Source: Myroides oncorhynchi
GTDB lineage: Bacteria > Bacteroidota > Bacteroidia > Flavobacteriales > Flavobacteriaceae
Length of the DNA: 64,000 nucleotides
Assembly: GCF_020905415.1 (NCBI RefSeq)
Contig: NZ_JAJJMP010000001.1
Coordinates: forward strand, 649,501 to 713,500
Reading direction: 5' to 3'
Shown here one piece after another: positions 4,764 through 55,902 of this stretch; positions within the stretch are counted from its first letter, which is position 1, and each line of letters opens with the position of its first letter. The notes below the pieces were generated by a model, which did no database searches, was not told the origin of the DNA, and was given only the letters and a program-made list of their open reading frames with translations. A program made the position numbers and the translations under genes.

Positions 4764-6581
4764 AGGGGCTGTCTCATAAAGACAGCTTCTTTTTTTAGTC
4801 ATATTTAGTATATTTACACTCTTATTATTTGTTTATTTAGTTGATTATCAGTATTTTTAAGTTGATAAATCAATGTGTTTATGGCAAAACAATCCCCTAG
4901 ATTTAAATACTACGCTCAGAATCAAATGAGCTTAATTCCTCATTCCTTAGATGATTTTATCCCTAAGTTACATCCTGTACGTATTATTAATACAGTAATA
5001 GATAAGTTAGACTTAGAAAGCTTATATGATAGCTACTCTAAATGTGGTGGTATCAGTTATCATCCAAAGATGTTACTAAAGGTTCTAATTTATGGTTACC
5101 TAAACAATGTGTACAGTAGTCGCAAGCTTGAGCAAGCCTGTTTAGAGAATGTTCATTATATGTGGTTAAGTGGTATGTCCTACCCAGACCACAATACAAT
5201 TAATCGTTTTCGCTCTTCAAAACTTAAGGATTATATAGAGCAAATCTTTACTCAGATTGTTGAGTTATTCATAGCGGAAGGTTTTATTAGTATTGAAGAG
5301 GCTTATATTGATGGAACTAAAATCGAGGCCAATGCTAATAAATTCACCTTTGTTTGGAAGAAAGCTATTTCAAATTATAAAGAAAAGATGGTTCAGCAGA
5401 TTCTAGAAATATGGGGTTATGCAGACTCTATTGCCAGACAAGAAAGTGAACTTCCACCACCCCCAGACTTTAAGAAAATAGATGCAGAGACTATAAATCA
5501 AGCCATTGACACATTAAATGCAGCGTTAAAAGACAATCCAGATGTTGACCAGAAAGTAAAGAACAAACTTAAGTATATCAGCAAAGAGTACCCTACAAAA
5601 ATTCAAGAGTACCAAGAGCATGAAGCTATACTAGAAGATCGCAATTCTTATTCTAAAACAGATAAGGATGCTACTTTTATGCGTATGAAGGAAGATCATA
5701 TGAATAGTGGTTTTCTAAAAGCAGGCTACAATGTTCAAATATCAACCAACAATCAATATATCCTTGCCTATAGTATACATTCAAACCCAACTGATACAAC
5801 TACATTAATACCTCACTTAGAAAAATTCAAAGAGAATTATGGCGAATATCCAAAGTCTGTTATAGCAGACGCAGGGTATGGTAGTCAAGAAAATTACACC
5901 TATTTAGAGGATCAACAAATTAAAGCTTTTGTGAAGTATAATACTTTTGAGCAAGAGCAAGAACAAGTAGAAAAAAAAACCAGGAAGAATGCTAAGCAAA
6001 GTACAAAGCCTTTTGCAACAGATAAATTATTTTACCAACACAAAGGTGATTATTTTGTATGTCCTATGGGACAAGAAATGCACTATATTGGAGATACAAC
6101 AAAAGCTACAACTACAGGCTTTATCCAAACATTAAGGCAATATCAAGCTAAAAATTGTCAAGGTTGTCCTTTAAATGGTGTATGCCATAAAGCAAAAGGC
6201 AATCGGACTATAGAAATAAACTTTGAATTACAACGACACCGAAAAAAAGCAAGTAAATTACTCACTACAAAAGAAGGTGTTGACAAGCGTACACAAAGGT
6301 GTCACGATGTAGAAACAGTTTTCGGAAACATTAAACAGAACCATGGGTTCCGCCGATTTATGCTTCGTGGTAAGGAAAAAGTCGCAATAGAATGGGGATT
6401 ATTGGCAATTGCACAAAATATTAGAAAGAGAGCTGCCTAAAAAGGCTCTTTTAGTTCCTTTTTTCTTTAATATCCTTTTTCAATCCTCTGAGGTTTGCAT
6501 ATTTTAAGAAAATCCTCTAAAAACAATATCTAAAATATCAGAACAAAGAGAGCTGTCTCTTTTTGCAATGAGACAGCCCCT
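4764..6581. mobile_element. IS1182-family insertion sequence, complete (1818 bp)
   Basis: The ends carry matching terminal inverted repeats starting AGGGGCTGTCTCAT (14 bp exact at both ends). Each tip also folds on itself: GCTGTCT-cataa-AGACAGC on the left, followed by a T-run, and GCTGTCTC...GAGACAGC on the right. One intact transposase gene fills the element. No clear target duplication can be seen next to the inverted repeats, which is tolerated in this family. The element lies between two convergent genes and disrupts no gene. Confidence 0.88.
4881..6440 (+). CDS. IS1182-family transposase
   Basis: 519-aa DDE transposase, apparently intact. The N-terminal DUF772-type domain (about residues 20-100, YHPKMLLKVLIYGYL) is followed by the catalytic domain. 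Likely catalytic residues are Asp144 in AYIDGTKIEANANK, Asp330 in VIADAGYGS and Glu478 in DVETVFGNIKQNHGFRRF. A cysteine pattern CPMGQ...CQGCPLNGVC lies between the second Asp and the Glu, as in IS1182 relatives. The frame also opens with a GTG two codons upstream (4875); the ATG at 4881 is preferred. It is the only gene of the element and its context says nothing about cargo. Confidence 0.93.
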   Translation: MAKQSPRFKYYAQNQMSLIPHSLDDFIPKLHPVRIINTVIDKLDLESLYDSYSKCGGISYHPKMLLKVLIYGYLNNVYSSRKLEQACLENVHYMWLSGMSYPDHNTINRFRSSKLKDYIEQIFTQIVELFIAEGFISIEEAYIDGTKIEANANKFTFVWKKAISNYKEKMVQQILEIWGYADSIARQESELPPPPDFKKIDAETINQAIDTLNAALKDNPDVDQKVKNKLKYISKEYPTKIQEYQEHEAILEDRNSYSKTDKDATFMRMKEDHMNSGFLKAGYNVQISTNNQYILAYSIHSNPTDTTTLIPHLEKFKENYGEYPKSVIADAGYGSQENYTYLEDQQIKAFVKYNTFEQEQEQVEKKTRKNAKQSTKPFATDKLFYQHKGDYFVCPMGQEMHYIGDTTKATTTGFIQTLRQYQAKNCQGCPLNGVCHKAKGNRTIEINFELQRHRKKASKLLTTKEGVDKRTQRCHDVETVFGNIKQNHGFRRFMLRGKEKVAIEWGLLAIAQNIRKRAA

Positions 6582-22984: not shown

Positions 22985-23075
22985 CTTAAATATTGAATAT
23001 TGAGATAGACAACTATTATGAAATAGAATTGCTTAGTGTATTTAGTTAATACATAATGTGAGTTAAAACTATCCC
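22985..23075. repeat. Partial copy of the 150-bp intergenic repeat (C4)
   Basis: The stretch around TATGAAATAGAATTGCTTAG and TTTAGTTAATA matches the 3' half of the copy at 23152-23303, with more mismatches. Presumably a decayed copy. Confidence 0.4.
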
Positions 23076-23151
23076 ACTGTATAATATGTAATAATCACAG
23101 GGAATTAACTTGACTACAACTTTTGTTTTTTGAAATTAATTGTATTTTTAG

Positions 23152-23303
23152 CCCAGAATCAACATTGGGCAGATAAACGAAAAAGAAATATACTAGATAT
23201 TTCTAAATTAGCGATTTAAGCATACAATAGCATAACTATAGAGCAAATAAAATAACTATGAAGTAGAATTGCTGTGTAGTATTTGGCTAATGTTGATTCT
23301 GGG
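23152..23303. repeat. 150-bp intergenic repeat, best copy (C1), with inverted termini
   Basis: 152 bp with near-perfect terminal inverted repeats: CCCAGAATCAACATT at the left and its complement AATGTTGATTCTGGG at the right. The interior has no ORF and shares AGATAAACGAAA, an internal TTAGCGATTT, TATAGAGC.AAT and AAGTAGAATT.TG.GTA.TATTTGGCTAATG with the copy at 48384. This layout (short, non-coding, inverted ends, several copies) is MITE-like. It occupies most of the 424-bp gap before the 294-aa lipoprotein, whose start lies 23 bp beyond it. Confidence 0.7.
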
Positions 23304-23326
23304 TTTAATACCAAGTCAAAACAACA

Positions 23327-28803: not shown

Positions 28804-29013
28804 ATGCCGATAATAGTAAACCTTGATGTAATGATGGCTAAGCGAAAGATATCGCTTAATGAGTTGGCTGAGCGTGTAGGTATCACAGTGAGTAATCTAT
28901 CCATACTCAAGACCAATAAAGCGAAAGCCATACGCTTTAGTACATTAGAGGCAATCTGTAAAGAATTAGATTGTCAACCAGCTGATATATTAGAATATGT
29001 AAATGAAGACTAA
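28804..29013 (+). CDS. Small Cro/CI-type HTH regulator (YozG-like)
   Basis: 69 aa made almost entirely of one HTH domain: MMAKRKISLNELAERVGITV then NLSILKTNKAKAIRF and ending LDCQPADILEYVNED. This wording is that of the YozG-like regulators found after DUF2975 genes, and it probably regulates this operon. Its stop codon lies in a hairpin terminator. The last 37 bp are duplicated 496 bp downstream (see 29473). Confidence 0.9.
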   Translation: MPIIVNLDVMMAKRKISLNELAERVGITVSNLSILKTNKAKAIRFSTLEAICKELDCQPADILEYVNED

Positions 29014-29031
29014 GCTAAGCGCTTGGTCTTC
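29005..29031 (+). terminator. Terminator of the DUF2975 operon
   Basis: GAAGAC...GTCTTC with inner AAGC...GCTT pairing, followed by TTACTTT. It includes the HTH stop codon. Confidence 0.55.
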
Positions 29032-29044
29032 TTACTTTAAATAA

Positions 29045-29472: not shown

Positions 29473-29509
29473 ACCAGCTGATATATTAGAATATGTAAAT
29501 GAAGACTAA
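29473..29509 (+). pseudogene. Exact 37-bp duplicate of the HTH gene 3' end
   Basis: 37 bp identical to 28977-29013, the last 12 codons and stop of the Cro/CI-type gene. No upstream HTH sequence accompanies it, so it is a remnant, not a gene. Confidence 0.75.
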
Positions 29510-29529
29510 ACTATATCCTTAATCTTATT

Positions 29530-44157: not shown

Positions 44158-44305
44158 ACCTAGAATATCTAATAGACATATAACCTATAAACGAAAAAAC
44201 AACAACACAAAAAGGTCTTAATTATTGATTTTTAGCACAATATAATTAAAGAATAATGATGTAGAATTGTATCTAATATATAGCTAATACTGTTTTGCGT
44301 TTATA
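44158..44305. repeat. Diverged copy of the 150-bp intergenic repeat (C3)
   Basis: Shares CCTAGAATA, ATAAACGAAAAA, the TTAGCACAATATAA region, ATGTAGAATTGTAT and AGCTAATACTG with the copies at 23152 and 48384, in the same order. Ends are too diverged to confirm inverted termini. Confidence 0.45.
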
Positions 44306-47605: not shown

Positions 47606-48382
47606 ATGATTGAAGTAAAAAACATACAAAAGTCGTTTGATGGTACACAGGTACTTAAAGGTATTAGTACTACATTCGAGACAGGAAAAACAAACCTTAT
47701 CATCGGACAGAGTGGCTCTGGTAAGACTGTAATGCTTAAAACACTTTTAGGCATACACACTCCTGATTCGGGAATCATCAGTTTTGATGGTAGAATATCT
47801 ACTGAACTTAACTCTACAGAACGAAGAGAACTAAGAACTGAAATAGGAATGGTCTTCCAAGGAAGTGCACTATTTGATTCAATGACTGTAGAAGAGAACA
47901 TTGCATTCCCTTTAAAGATGTTCACTAATAAATCTGATGCTGAAATAGCCGAAAGAGTTAATGAAGTTATCGACCGAGTTAACCTTATCAATGCAAACAA
48001 AAAGAAACCTTCAGAGATATCAGGAGGTATGCAGAAGAGGGTAGCTATCGCAAGAGCAATAGTAAATAACCCAAAATACTTATTCTGTGACGAACCTAAC
48101 TCAGGGCTTGACCCGAAAACAGCTATCGTTATCGATAACTTAATTCAAGAGATTACGCATGAGTATGGTATCACCACTGTCATCAACACCCACGATATGA
48201 ATTCTGTACTAGAGATAGGTGAGCATATCGTATTTTTAAAAAATGGTGTATTAGCATGGTCTGGTAATCATAAAGAAATCATTCAGACAGATAATGAAGA
48301 TGTTGTAGACTTTGTTTACTCATCAGAGCTTTTTAGAATGGTTCGCCAAGCTATGAAACAAATCGGAAACGAAAAGAAATAA
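47606..48382 (+). CDS. mlaF: MlaF-type ABC transporter ATP-binding protein
   Basis: 258 aa. Walker A GQSGSGKT at residues 34-41, signature ISGGMQKRVAIARA, Walker B YLFCDEPNSGLDP, switch NTHD. Closest to MlaF, the ATPase of the lipid transporter encoded by the preceding gene. Its stop codon is 1 bp before a 150-bp repeat copy. Confidence 0.95.
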   Translation: MIEVKNIQKSFDGTQVLKGISTTFETGKTNLIIGQSGSGKTVMLKTLLGIHTPDSGIISFDGRISTELNSTERRELRTEIGMVFQGSALFDSMTVEENIAFPLKMFTNKSDAEIAERVNEVIDRVNLINANKKKPSEISGGMQKRVAIARAIVNNPKYLFCDEPNSGLDPKTAIVIDNLIQEITHEYGITTVINTHDMNSVLEIGEHIVFLKNGVLAWSGNHKEIIQTDNEDVVDFVYSSELFRMVRQAMKQIGNEKK

Positions 48383-48383
48383 T

Positions 48384-48537
48384 CCCAGAATCAGCGATAG
48401 ACAGATAAACGAAATGCAATTATACAAGATAGGTCTGAATTAGTGATTTCAACATACTATAGTATGGTTATAGAGCTAATGAAAGAACTATAAAGTAGAA
48501 TTATTTTGTAATATTTGGCTAATGCTGCTTATGGAAT
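48384..48537. repeat. 150-bp intergenic repeat, second copy (C2)
   Basis: About 75% identical to the copy at 23152-23303 over its length, with the same internal words (CAGATAAACGAAA, GATTT.AACATAC, TATAGAGC, AAGTAGAATT, TATTTGGCTAATG). Its inverted ends are degraded (CCCAGAATCAGCG against GCTGCTTATGGAA). It follows the mlaF stop by 1 bp. Confidence 0.65.
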
Positions 48538-48544
48538 GAATCAT

Positions 48545-52061: not shown

Positions 52062-53663
52062 TTACGCCAACATAGTAACTGGGTTCTCTACATAATCTTT
52101 AAATGTTTGTAAGAATTGAGCACCTGTAGCACCGTCCACTGTTCTGTGGTCACATGCTAAAGTTACTACCATCGTGTTTCCAACTACAACCTGACCGTTC
52201 TTAACTACTGGTTTTTCTATAATAGCACCTACTGATAGAATAGCAGAGTTAGGTTGGTTGATAATAGAAGTAAATGATTGGATACCGAACATACCTAAGT
52301 TAGATACAGTAAATGTACTTCCTTCCATTTCAGCAGGAGTAAGTTTTTTAGTTTTAGCTTTAACAGCTAATTCTTTTACTTTACCACCGATGTTAGTAAG
52401 AGACATCTGATCTGTGAATGGCAATACTGGTACTACTAATCCATCTTCTACAGCTACAGCCACACCTATATTGATATGATTGTTATAGATAGTCGCATTA
52501 TCAGTCCATTGCGTATTCACTTGTGGGTGTTTGCGAAGTGCCATAGCACATGCTTTCACTACCATATCATTAAATGACACTTTAGTATCAGGTAGATTAT
52601 TAATAATCTTACGAGACTCGATAGCATTATCCATGTCTAACTCGATAGTTAAGTAATAGTGAGGAGCAGTAAACTTAGACTCAGCTAAACGACGAGCAAT
52701 AGTTTTACGCATTTGTGAATTTTTCACTTCCTCTACACTTACTTCACCAGCAGGTACAAAAGCCTTAACTGCAGGTGCAGCAGCCGTAGCAGCAGCTACA
52801 GGAGATGCTGTCTTAGCAGCTGGTGTGAAGTTTTCGATATCGCGTTTAACGATACGCCCATTCTCACCTGAACCTTTAACGTCAGTAATGTTTATTCCTT
52901 TATCTTCAGCAATCTTCTTAGCCAACGGAGAAATGAATACTCTCCCATTAGTTGAAGCAGTAGCCTCCACACTTACAGTTGCAGCAGGAGTCGCAGCTTT
53001 AGGAGCCTCTTCTACAGAAGCCTCAACAGCAAAACCACCAGCTACGATAGCAGATACATCAGTTCCTTCTGGTCCTAAGATAGCTAATACGCTATCCACT
53101 GGAGCAGATTCCCCTTCATTAATACCTACATATAATAAAGTTCCAGCTTCGAAAGCTTCGAACTCCATAGTTGCTTTATCAGTTTCTATTTCTGCAAGGA
53201 TATCACCCTCTTGTACTTTATCACCTACTTTTTTAATCCAAGTAGCAACTGTACCATCAGTCATCGTATCACTTAGACGAGGCATAGTAATGATCTTAAC
53301 TCCAGCAGGCATAGCAGCCGCTTTAGGAGCAGGAGCATCAGCTTTAACTTCTACTTGTGCAGCAGGAGCCTCAGCTACAGGAGCAGTGCTAGCACCACCA
53401 CTGATTAATGCAGAGATATCTTCACCTTCAGTACCTATAATAGCAAGTAACGAATCTACAGGAGCAGATTCACCTTCTTGTAATCCAATATATAACAATG
53501 TACCTGAGTTAAATGACTCAAACTCCATTGTTGCTTTGTCTGTTTCGATCTCTGCAAGGATATCTCCTTCTGAAATCTTATCTCCAACTTTTTTTAACCA
53601 AGCTGCAACCACACCTTCTGTCATAGTGTCGCTTAAGCGAGGCATTGTAATTACTTCTGCCAT
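52062..53663 (-). CDS. Pyruvate dehydrogenase complex E2 (dihydrolipoamide acetyltransferase)
   Basis: 533-aa E2 with two N-terminal lipoyl domains; the lipoyl lysines are Lys43 and Lys163, each within ETDKATMEFE. A peripheral-subunit-binding domain follows (about residues 240-280, SPLAKKIAEDKGINITDV), then the catalytic domain with DHRTVDG holding His506 and Asp510. Ala/Pro/Val-rich linkers separate the parts. Accepts acetyl groups from E1 and transfers them to CoA. Second gene of the pdhA operon, 12 bp after pdhA. The long frame on the other strand is a composition artefact. Confidence 0.96.
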   Translation of the reverse strand: MAEVITMPRLSDTMTEGVVAAWLKKVGDKISEGDILAEIETDKATMEFESFNSGTLLYIGLQEGESAPVDSLLAIIGTEGEDISALISGGASTAPVAEAPAAQVEVKADAPAPKAAAMPAGVKIITMPRLSDTMTDGTVATWIKKVGDKVQEGDILAEIETDKATMEFEAFEAGTLLYVGINEGESAPVDSVLAILGPEGTDVSAIVAGGFAVEASVEEAPKAATPAATVSVEATASTNGRVFISPLAKKIAEDKGINITDVKGSGENGRIVKRDIENFTPAAKTASPVAAATAAAPAVKAFVPAGEVSVEEVKNSQMRKTIARRLAESKFTAPHYYLTIELDMDNAIESRKIINNLPDTKVSFNDMVVKACAMALRKHPQVNTQWTDNATIYNNHINIGVAVAVEDGLVVPVLPFTDQMSLTNIGGKVKELAVKAKTKKLTPAEMEGSTFTVSNLGMFGIQSFTSIINQPNSAILSVGAIIEKPVVKNGQVVVGNTMVVTLACDHRTVDGATGAQFLQTFKDYVENPVTMLA

Positions 53664-54758: not shown

Positions 54759-55902
54759 ATATATCTACGTTAGACTGAAAAATTTATTTGAAGTATTTTA
54801 GATTTGATAAGTATTTAGATAATTAATTTAACAATACCTTATAATTAGACACTTTAATTAAACATCTAATTTTTACTTTCTAAACCTAAATAACCAAATA
54901 TTGCTTTTTAAAAGTACTATAACATTTAAACGATCATTATTATCTTGCTCATTTAAAAAGTCATACACCTTAAAAACATCACTTACACGGACAATAATTG
55001 TCTGAATTCTAGGTTAACTCTTCTCTCTAACCACTTGCGTTATTAATACTAAGAGAATTATACTCCAAATCACATTTACATAAATTCATTCCCCAAATCT
55101 CACCTTATTACTTAGGCTCTTGTAGTATTACAGTCAATAAAGTAGTAGAACTATTCTTTATTTAGCTAATAAATTCTACTATCTCTGAAGAATAAACATT
55201 CTTAATTCATCAAGCTAATACAATCTACAATCCACCCCTATAACACTCAATACTAAACTCTTCTTTAATATTTTAACCTATTATTTTACTTTTCCACTCC
55301 CTTCCACTTCTAAAAAATCCTTTTTAGAAGTATTTATTCCCTTGTTTTTATCTTCAAATACCCCTCTAGGCTCTTTAGCAGGTTCAGATCTAAAAAATAA
55401 CTTCAGTTTTTATTTTAGAACCAAAACTACAATAAACTAATAATCAATATATTACAATAAAAAACTGATTTATTGAAATACATCTAACACCCTATTACCC
55501 CAGTATATAAGCGTCTTCTTACCCTATCCTAGGACAATTATAGGAGAATAACAGGGGATATAGATTCTTTCTCCAAGAATTCAGCTTTCAATCTACTGTT
55601 ATTCTCCTCCTATGCTTCTTTCGTTTTAGATACAATTATCAACAGTATAAGAGGAAATACGACGAAATAACAAATTATTTCAGCCTTTTACCACTCTTAA
55701 TAAGTTCGAATTCAGCCATCAAGACAGTGTCACTAAGGGCTGAACAGCCTATGAATTTCGCTTACTACTTATGTACTAGGTATGCTGATTTTTTTATATT
55801 ACAAATACAGAAAACAACCATCTCATACACAATACCATACATTAGATAGCAGTGAATTAATCCTAAAACACAAAAAAACTAAAACACAAAAAAACATAAG
55901 TT

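Follow-up and report, generated by a model that had tools for sequence, protein, structure and literature searches.

A dispersed 152-bp palindromic MITE family in Myroides that is probably mobilized in trans by a resident IS1380 element

The genome of Myroides oncorhynchi (G000; 4.16 Mb, two contigs) contains a family of 152-bp miniature inverted-repeat transposable elements (MITEs), which are dispersed along the chromosome, possess defined ends and 5-bp target duplications of the TTWAA type, are represented by an empty site in a related genome, and include copies that are nearly identical to each other. We are highly confident that these features together are best explained by a non-autonomous MITE that is moved in trans by a resident insertion sequence of the IS1380 family. 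The MITE family is new with respect to the literature searched and most likely moved by IS1380. The repeat was noticed in a stretch of 64,000 nucleotides with a GC content of 34.7% (G000:C1:649501-713500; hereafter “the window”), and an earlier note that was made from the letters of this stretch had suggested that it may be a MITE. This reading is supported by the copies, their ends and duplications, the empty site, and the matching termini of the resident insertion sequence (IS).

The features identified in the window are listed in Table 1. Copy 1, which reads CCCAGAATCAAC...GTTGATTCTGGG, is exactly one 152-bp element with the borders given in the earlier note, and its ortholog in Myroides sp. 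N17-2, which occupies the same site, has TTTAA on both flanks. Copy 2 is a second full copy, for which the earlier note had placed the end (48537) two bases too far; its left target duplication overlaps the stop codon of the ORF at 47606–48382. The copy reported at 44158–44305 was confirmed as a decayed third copy with a local alignment score of 49, compared with at most 33 in 300 shuffles, and with the mismatched flanks TTAAA and TTTAT. The segment 22985–23075 turned out not to be a full copy. It includes a match to the right half of the element with a score of 43 (shuffle maximum 30; reached by none of 300 shuffles), which was not significant by HMM alone (E = 0.16; 8.0 bits versus 7.7 bits for the best match in the reversed window) and which is lacking from the aligned N17-2 site. 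The possible further copy at 55137–55175 was not confirmed, as its score was reached by 29 of 300 shuffles in one orientation and by 130 of 300 in the other, and as it gave no HMM hit at E ≤ 10.

Table 1 Features of the MITE family in the window (positions refer to the window).
Feature	Position	Strand	Remarks
Remnant, right half of a MITE copy	23016..23065	+	local score; weak HMM
Left target duplication of copy 1	23147..23151	+	TTTAG; N17-2 ortholog has TTTAA
MITE copy 1, full length, 152 bp	23152..23303	+	HMM E 1e-39
Right target duplication of copy 1	23304..23308	+	TTTAA
MITE copy 3, decayed, about 141 bp	44159..44299	+	HMM E 6.5e-7
Left target duplication of copy 2	48379..48383	+	ATAAT
MITE copy 2, full length, 152 bp	48384..48535	+	HMM E 6e-46
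Right target duplication of copy 2	48536..48540	+	ATGAA, unlike ATAAT

The repeat is not confined to the places listed in the earlier note. A plain DNA search of the own genome, for which the best 40 of 159 candidates were scored, yielded at least 51 matches over both strands at no fewer than 40 distinct places, and a sequence model built from 20 copies, with the best 150 of 4629 candidates scored, yielded at least 155 matches over both strands. After merging of the strands, at least 108 non-overlapping HMM matches with E ≤ 1e-3 were obtained in the own-genome DNA examined, which is a lower bound based on the best 150 of the 4629 candidates and leaves out 15 weaker listed places. Full length (≥70 bits) was found for 88 copies, 47 on the plus and 41 on the minus strand. 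The median identity to the consensus was 89.5% (range 74.5–94.1%; 59 copies of 146–153 bp with clear ends). The intergenic placement seen in the window holds genome-wide, with 83 of the 88 full copies overlapping no predicted ORF of ≥100 aa by more than 20 bp and five overlapping an ORF end by 23–65 bp, where the ORFs are purely mechanical predictions. For the 79 full copies that are flanked by predicted ORFs on either side, the gene context was tandem in 43 cases, convergent in 25, and divergent in 11. Some copies, identified by eye and uncounted, are located in, or directly after, a hairpin with a T-run that resembles a terminator, as is expected for a TTWAA target.

The aligned copies have the defined termini CCCAG...CTGGG, with the terminal inverted repeat CCCAGAWTC... 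at either end. Target duplications were analyzed in the 73 of the 88 full copies that had clear ends (15 were dropped). The 5 bases outside CCC...GGG were identical in 39 of these 73 copies (mean 13.3 and maximum 23 in 2000 shuffles), and exact 5-bp duplications were found in 46 of 88 copies when none was dropped. The flanking consensus was TTWAW. Other lengths and offsets did not exceed the shuffles in the 73 copies, except for a 3-bp match at offset 1 that is nested in the 5-bp one (47 of 73; mean 28.6 and maximum 43 in shuffles). A 3-bp TNA duplication and a partner of the IS5/IS1031 type, which had been our first guess, were thus dropped because the 5-bp signal at offset 0 was the strongest. 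The absence of an exact 5-bp duplication in the other 34 copies is compatible with, and no proof of, their age.

Comparison of the flanks of the G000 copies with loci fetched from relatives revealed one clean empty site. The locus at 484031 carries the element in G000 and N17-2, whereas M. odoratimimus CCUG 39352 has one TTTAA and no element there. The element at 528876 is likewise absent in CCUG 39352, with a 1-base difference at the junction, and the alignment of a third candidate (2364493) was too poor to count. At 11 listed loci a copy is common to G000 and a relative, and many insertions are therefore old. Two copies (2450522 and 2291762) are identical at 151 of 152 bases and have different duplications (TTAAA and TTTAT); this single difference means that some insertions are recent. 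One intergenic region (L134, G000 3219470; L194) contains a MITE in both G000 and N17-2, but the two have opposite orientations and differ in their flanks, which reflects either independent insertions or an inversion.

There is no room for a transposase within 152 bp. Full-length transposons with matching termini were found in the own genome by a search with PF13701, which retrieved, besides fragments, two intact IS1380 elements of 1400 bp each. The transposase ORF of 438 aa matches the NCBIfam IS1380 model NF033539 (253 bits, cut-off 180) and Pfam PF13701. Both elements are bordered by exact 5-bp duplications (TTTAA/TTTAA and TTAAA/TTAAA), in agreement with the duplication length and the TTWAA target of the MITE, and their left and right ends read CCCACATTCCGCATTAG and CCCAGATTACGCATTAG, respectively (CCCGG... 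in one copy). Relative to the nearest IS end, the right ends of the 73 MITEs had no mismatch over 17 positions in 2 copies, one in 8, two to five in 51, and six to nine in 12. The left ends fitted worse, with two to three mismatches in 6 copies, four to six in 59, and seven to eight in 8. As a control, all 552 CCC-anchored 17-mers of the window differed from the IS ends by at least 4 mismatches. When up to 2 mismatches were allowed, the pattern of the IS ends occurred at 36 places in the own genome and at none when read backwards; four of these places correspond to the IS ends, 28 have a MITE match within 25 bp, one is beside a weaker MITE-model place, and three were unplaced. While the MITE thus shares its termini with the IS1380 copies, no similarity above shuffles to the IS interior was detected outside the terminal ~17 bp, and its descent from the resident IS as an internal deletion derivative, for which a shared interior was looked for, is therefore unsupported.

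We infer that mobilization in trans by IS1380 is the best mechanism, because two intact IS elements have similar ends and 5-bp duplications and because the right ends of 2 of the 73 MITEs are identical to the IS end at 17 of 17 positions. The IS1380-family DDE transposase from the two 1400-bp elements would bind the MITE ends in trans, excise the MITE, and insert it at TTWAA sites, which are common in AT-rich intergenic DNA and in the T-tracts after genes, and the landed copies would then decay without detectable constraint. A 5-bp target duplication, as found for the MITE, is also described for the IS1380 members ISEcp1 (PMC2887853) and IS1247 (PMC3281130). Moreover, IS1380 transposases are described to misrecognize ends and to mobilize adjacent DNA (PMC9330008), and the imperfect ends of the MITE are therefore no necessary bar to such a mechanism. 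An IS1380 element of Aliarcobacter cibarius, 42.6% identical, has CCC...GGG ends of a similar kind and is flanked by an ATAAT/ATAAT duplication; for a relative in A. faecis only the left end was seen.

Two other candidate parents were rejected. A decayed IS1380-like transposase (G000:C1:2112059-2113282), which is in pieces and without recognizable ends, has no end within 5 mismatches of 17. The other, located at 1.86 Mb with a MITE copy on either side, sits inside a duplicated segment and has no MITE ends paired in inverted orientation around it. At this locus (L071:1001-3700; G000:C1 about 1860.5–1863.2 kb), a 499-aa transposase ORF, presumably IS1634-like, lies between two direct segment copies, each of which contains a MITE and the 3' part of a gene that we take to resemble tsaB. 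Apparently, this is a large duplication around an IS.

The near-perfect terminal inverted repeats described in the earlier note are real, and the palindrome extends imperfectly over the whole element, whose halves are inverted copies of one another with fixed mismatches. Fold z-scores were −7.1 for copy 1 as RNA and −3.9 for copy 2 as DNA, in ranges shifted by 2 bases and 1 base, respectively, from the exact ends. Among 59 copies, we counted 15 compensatory double changes compared with 6.1 in a partner-shuffled null (null maximum 14, n = 300). A branch test was performed with 116 copies, for which 57 copies drawn from 79 full-length copies of relatives were added. On internal branches, pair-breaking changes were fewer than in the null (49 vs. 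68.8; 0 of 500 as low) and compensations more frequent (9 vs. 0.74). On terminal branches, breaks occurred at the null rate (264 vs. 267, and 197 vs. 196 in an earlier test), with 24 compensations vs. 7.8 and 16 restorations vs. 27 (0 of 500 as low), and this excess of compensations together with few restorations fits no simple story. Internal branches reflect lineages that were still copying, terminal branches also span the time before insertion, and all these branch counts rest on parsimony states and a short alignment. The data are suggestive of a palindrome that is kept in the active lineage, partly via template-switch correction, and that decays freely after landing.

The covariation between the arms could be mutational, with template switching copying one arm onto the other (quasipalindrome correction), and not a product of selection; we regard this as a serious possibility that falls somewhat short of an even chance. 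In 3 of 31 blocks of clustered changes, located at 3478077, at 1361944, and on one internal branch, one arm became a perfect complement of the other, compared with 0–1 blocks in eight slid controls, and such a mechanism is established in E. coli (PMC7202029). However, there were just three such blocks, all at a mismatch near the tip, and the share of changed columns that became complementary across all 31 blocks (29.5%) was not above that of the slid controls (14.3–31.4%). Template switching alone also leaves the small number of breaks on internal branches unexplained.

A core pattern of 22 specified bases was found in 67 stretches across genome contigs, all of them in Myroides, namely M. odoratimimus CCUG 39352, Myroides sp. 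N17-2, and M. albus BIT-d1; this search may omit records very near the window. The MITE model matched 6 of 121 genomes of the genus including the own one, under stricter filters with which weak copies can be lost. A DNA query of 60 relatives gave matches in three, of which that in G053, from another family of the order, covered only 39 bp, and the plasmid collection contained no match to a MITE copy. Three of the six genomes matched by the model (G128, G069, and G135) carry another palindromic element, which is 172 bp long and has the ends of the 152-bp family. This second palindromic MITE family has 5-bp TTWAA-type duplications and a different interior (L240, L241, L242, L244, L256, L257, L259, L260; hosts G128, G069, G135, G174, and G200). 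The duplication was exact at four of six places (L244, L241/L260, L242/L256, and L257) and inexact at L240 and L259, and matches to the family, some of them partial, were detected in 11 of 199 congeners (E ≤ 1e-10; best four candidates per genome).

One could combine these observations into a broader scenario, which we put forward tentatively and consider rather doubtful as a whole. The full palindrome would be needed for amplification, so that only copies with pairing arms seed new ones, through a hairpin that is recognized or formed in transposition or replication; landed copies would decay freely, template switching would help the arms to match, and unrelated palindromic MITE families of Flavobacterium-like bacteria, with 152 bp in Myroides and 172 bp in other congeners, would make use of ends of the IS1380 type.

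That the MITE is mobile but was moved by a transposase other than the resident IS1380, for instance one that has since been lost, appears unlikely. At E ≤ 1e-40, no IS1380 protein was found among the 121 genus genomes beyond the own one, which was also the only one of 10 genomes searched with IS1380 above the cut-off. Five congeners match the MITE model and lack IS1380 above this cut-off, with no match at all in G020, G128, G069, and G135 and a sub-cut-off match alone in G099, and the imperfect fit of the MITE left ends to the resident IS1380 points in the same direction. However, these congeners include drafts (although G135 and G099 are single contigs), and the ends, the 5-bp length, and the TTWAA target all fit the resident IS1380, as does the location of most IS-end-pattern places beside MITE matches. 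Furthermore, none of the 20 loci scanned out of 30 PF01609 loci was framed by an inverted pair of ends with up to 2 mismatches to CCCAGAATCAGC, in a weak scan that also missed the IS1380 ends; it gave a single one-sided match at L042, and MITE copies are located beside L065.

The earlier note had also considered a cis-regulatory or RNA role, and it had named a conserved RNA family with compensatory base changes, in place of mobile DNA, as the finding that would speak against a MITE. Compensatory changes are indeed in excess, both in the 59-copy and in the 116-copy set, but the copies are nevertheless mobile DNA, and a few of these changes resemble the correction of one palindrome arm by the other. 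Element and near flank were compared for eight of the 11 shared copies, all except L136/L212, L149/L224, and L145/L222. The element was closer than the flank in three copies and less close in five (element/near-flank identities 0.81/0.95, 0.98/0.93, 0.94/0.95, 0.95/0.93, 0.89/0.90, 0.90/0.94, 0.93/0.86, and 0.85/0.87), and these eight copies gave no sign of conservation beyond the flanks. The 589 isolated changes did not lean toward complementarity (23.4%, compared with 21.9–28.7% with a slid partner), and Rfam had no match in the window at the gathering score. Although the hairpin over the whole length, the compensatory changes, and the intergenic location of the copies would suit a conserved structured RNA or cis-regulatory hairpin, such as a terminator, an RNase III site, or an mRNA stabilizer, this role is unsupported because pair-breaking changes on terminal branches are as frequent as in the null and because shared copies diverge about as much as the sequence beside them, and it is made highly improbable also by the isolated changes, the lack of an Rfam match, and the target duplications, empty sites, and scattered positions.

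ERIC is a whole-length imperfect palindrome of 127 bp with a TA duplication, and RUP also duplicates a TA dinucleotide. The Correia elements of Neisseria and RUP of pneumococcus have a similar size, terminal inverted repeats, and a proposed mobilizer in trans, the proposed partners being of the IS630 type. By description, the Myroides element is set apart from ERIC by its 5-bp TTWAA duplication and CCCAG ends, and from Correia and RUP by its putative partner IS1380 and its TTWAA target. A TA dinucleotide duplication of the ERIC/RUP type was not found, and 5 bp is the length that stands out here, which also argues against membership in REPIN/RAYT. As regards integron attC sites, for which a cassette array would be the mark, the copies are dispersed. 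Like the MITE family, ERIC is small and has many intergenic copies, 30–711 per genome (PMC10969869), and Correia elements are described as mostly TA-bordered, with 3–5 bp AT-rich repeats as well (PMC9330008). MITEPye1 (PMC11578231) and the IS982 MITE of Cardinium (PMC9769881) are linked, as here, to a resident IS whose ends match theirs, but their partners are IS1182 and IS982, respectively, and MITEPye1 is described with 1–3 chromosomal copies. In an account of piggyBac that uses IS1380 as outgroup, a TTAA target and the terminal motifs CCCTT and CCCAT are given (PMC10813416); piggyBac, likened here by description, differs in being eukaryotic and in its 4-bp TTAA duplication.

In the literature searched, we found no report of the 152-bp element or of a MITE powered by IS1380, and the main text of a review (PMC10969869) contains no occurrence of IS1380. 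Myroides gains a high-copy MITE family that is tied to IS1380, a family without a reported MITE in this literature. Its roughly 100 copies, the sites that are shared with or empty in relatives, and the resident IS make it a natural system for testing whether whole-length MITE palindromes are kept by transposition, mutation bias, or RNA function.

The window contains additional repeated sequences. A 521-aa ORF at 4875–6440 overlaps a DDE_Tnp_1 match (genome positions 655149–655922), which belongs to a group of five transposase matches that score almost equally and have open frames of 521–523 aa. A 258-bp direct repeat with 71% identity is located inside the ORF at 52062–53663 (53034–53291 and 53394–53651). 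Finally, a 57-bp repeat with 86% identity (28977–29033 and 29473–29529) adjoins two short ORFs on the minus strand (113 and 119 aa), which may represent a tandem gene duplication.
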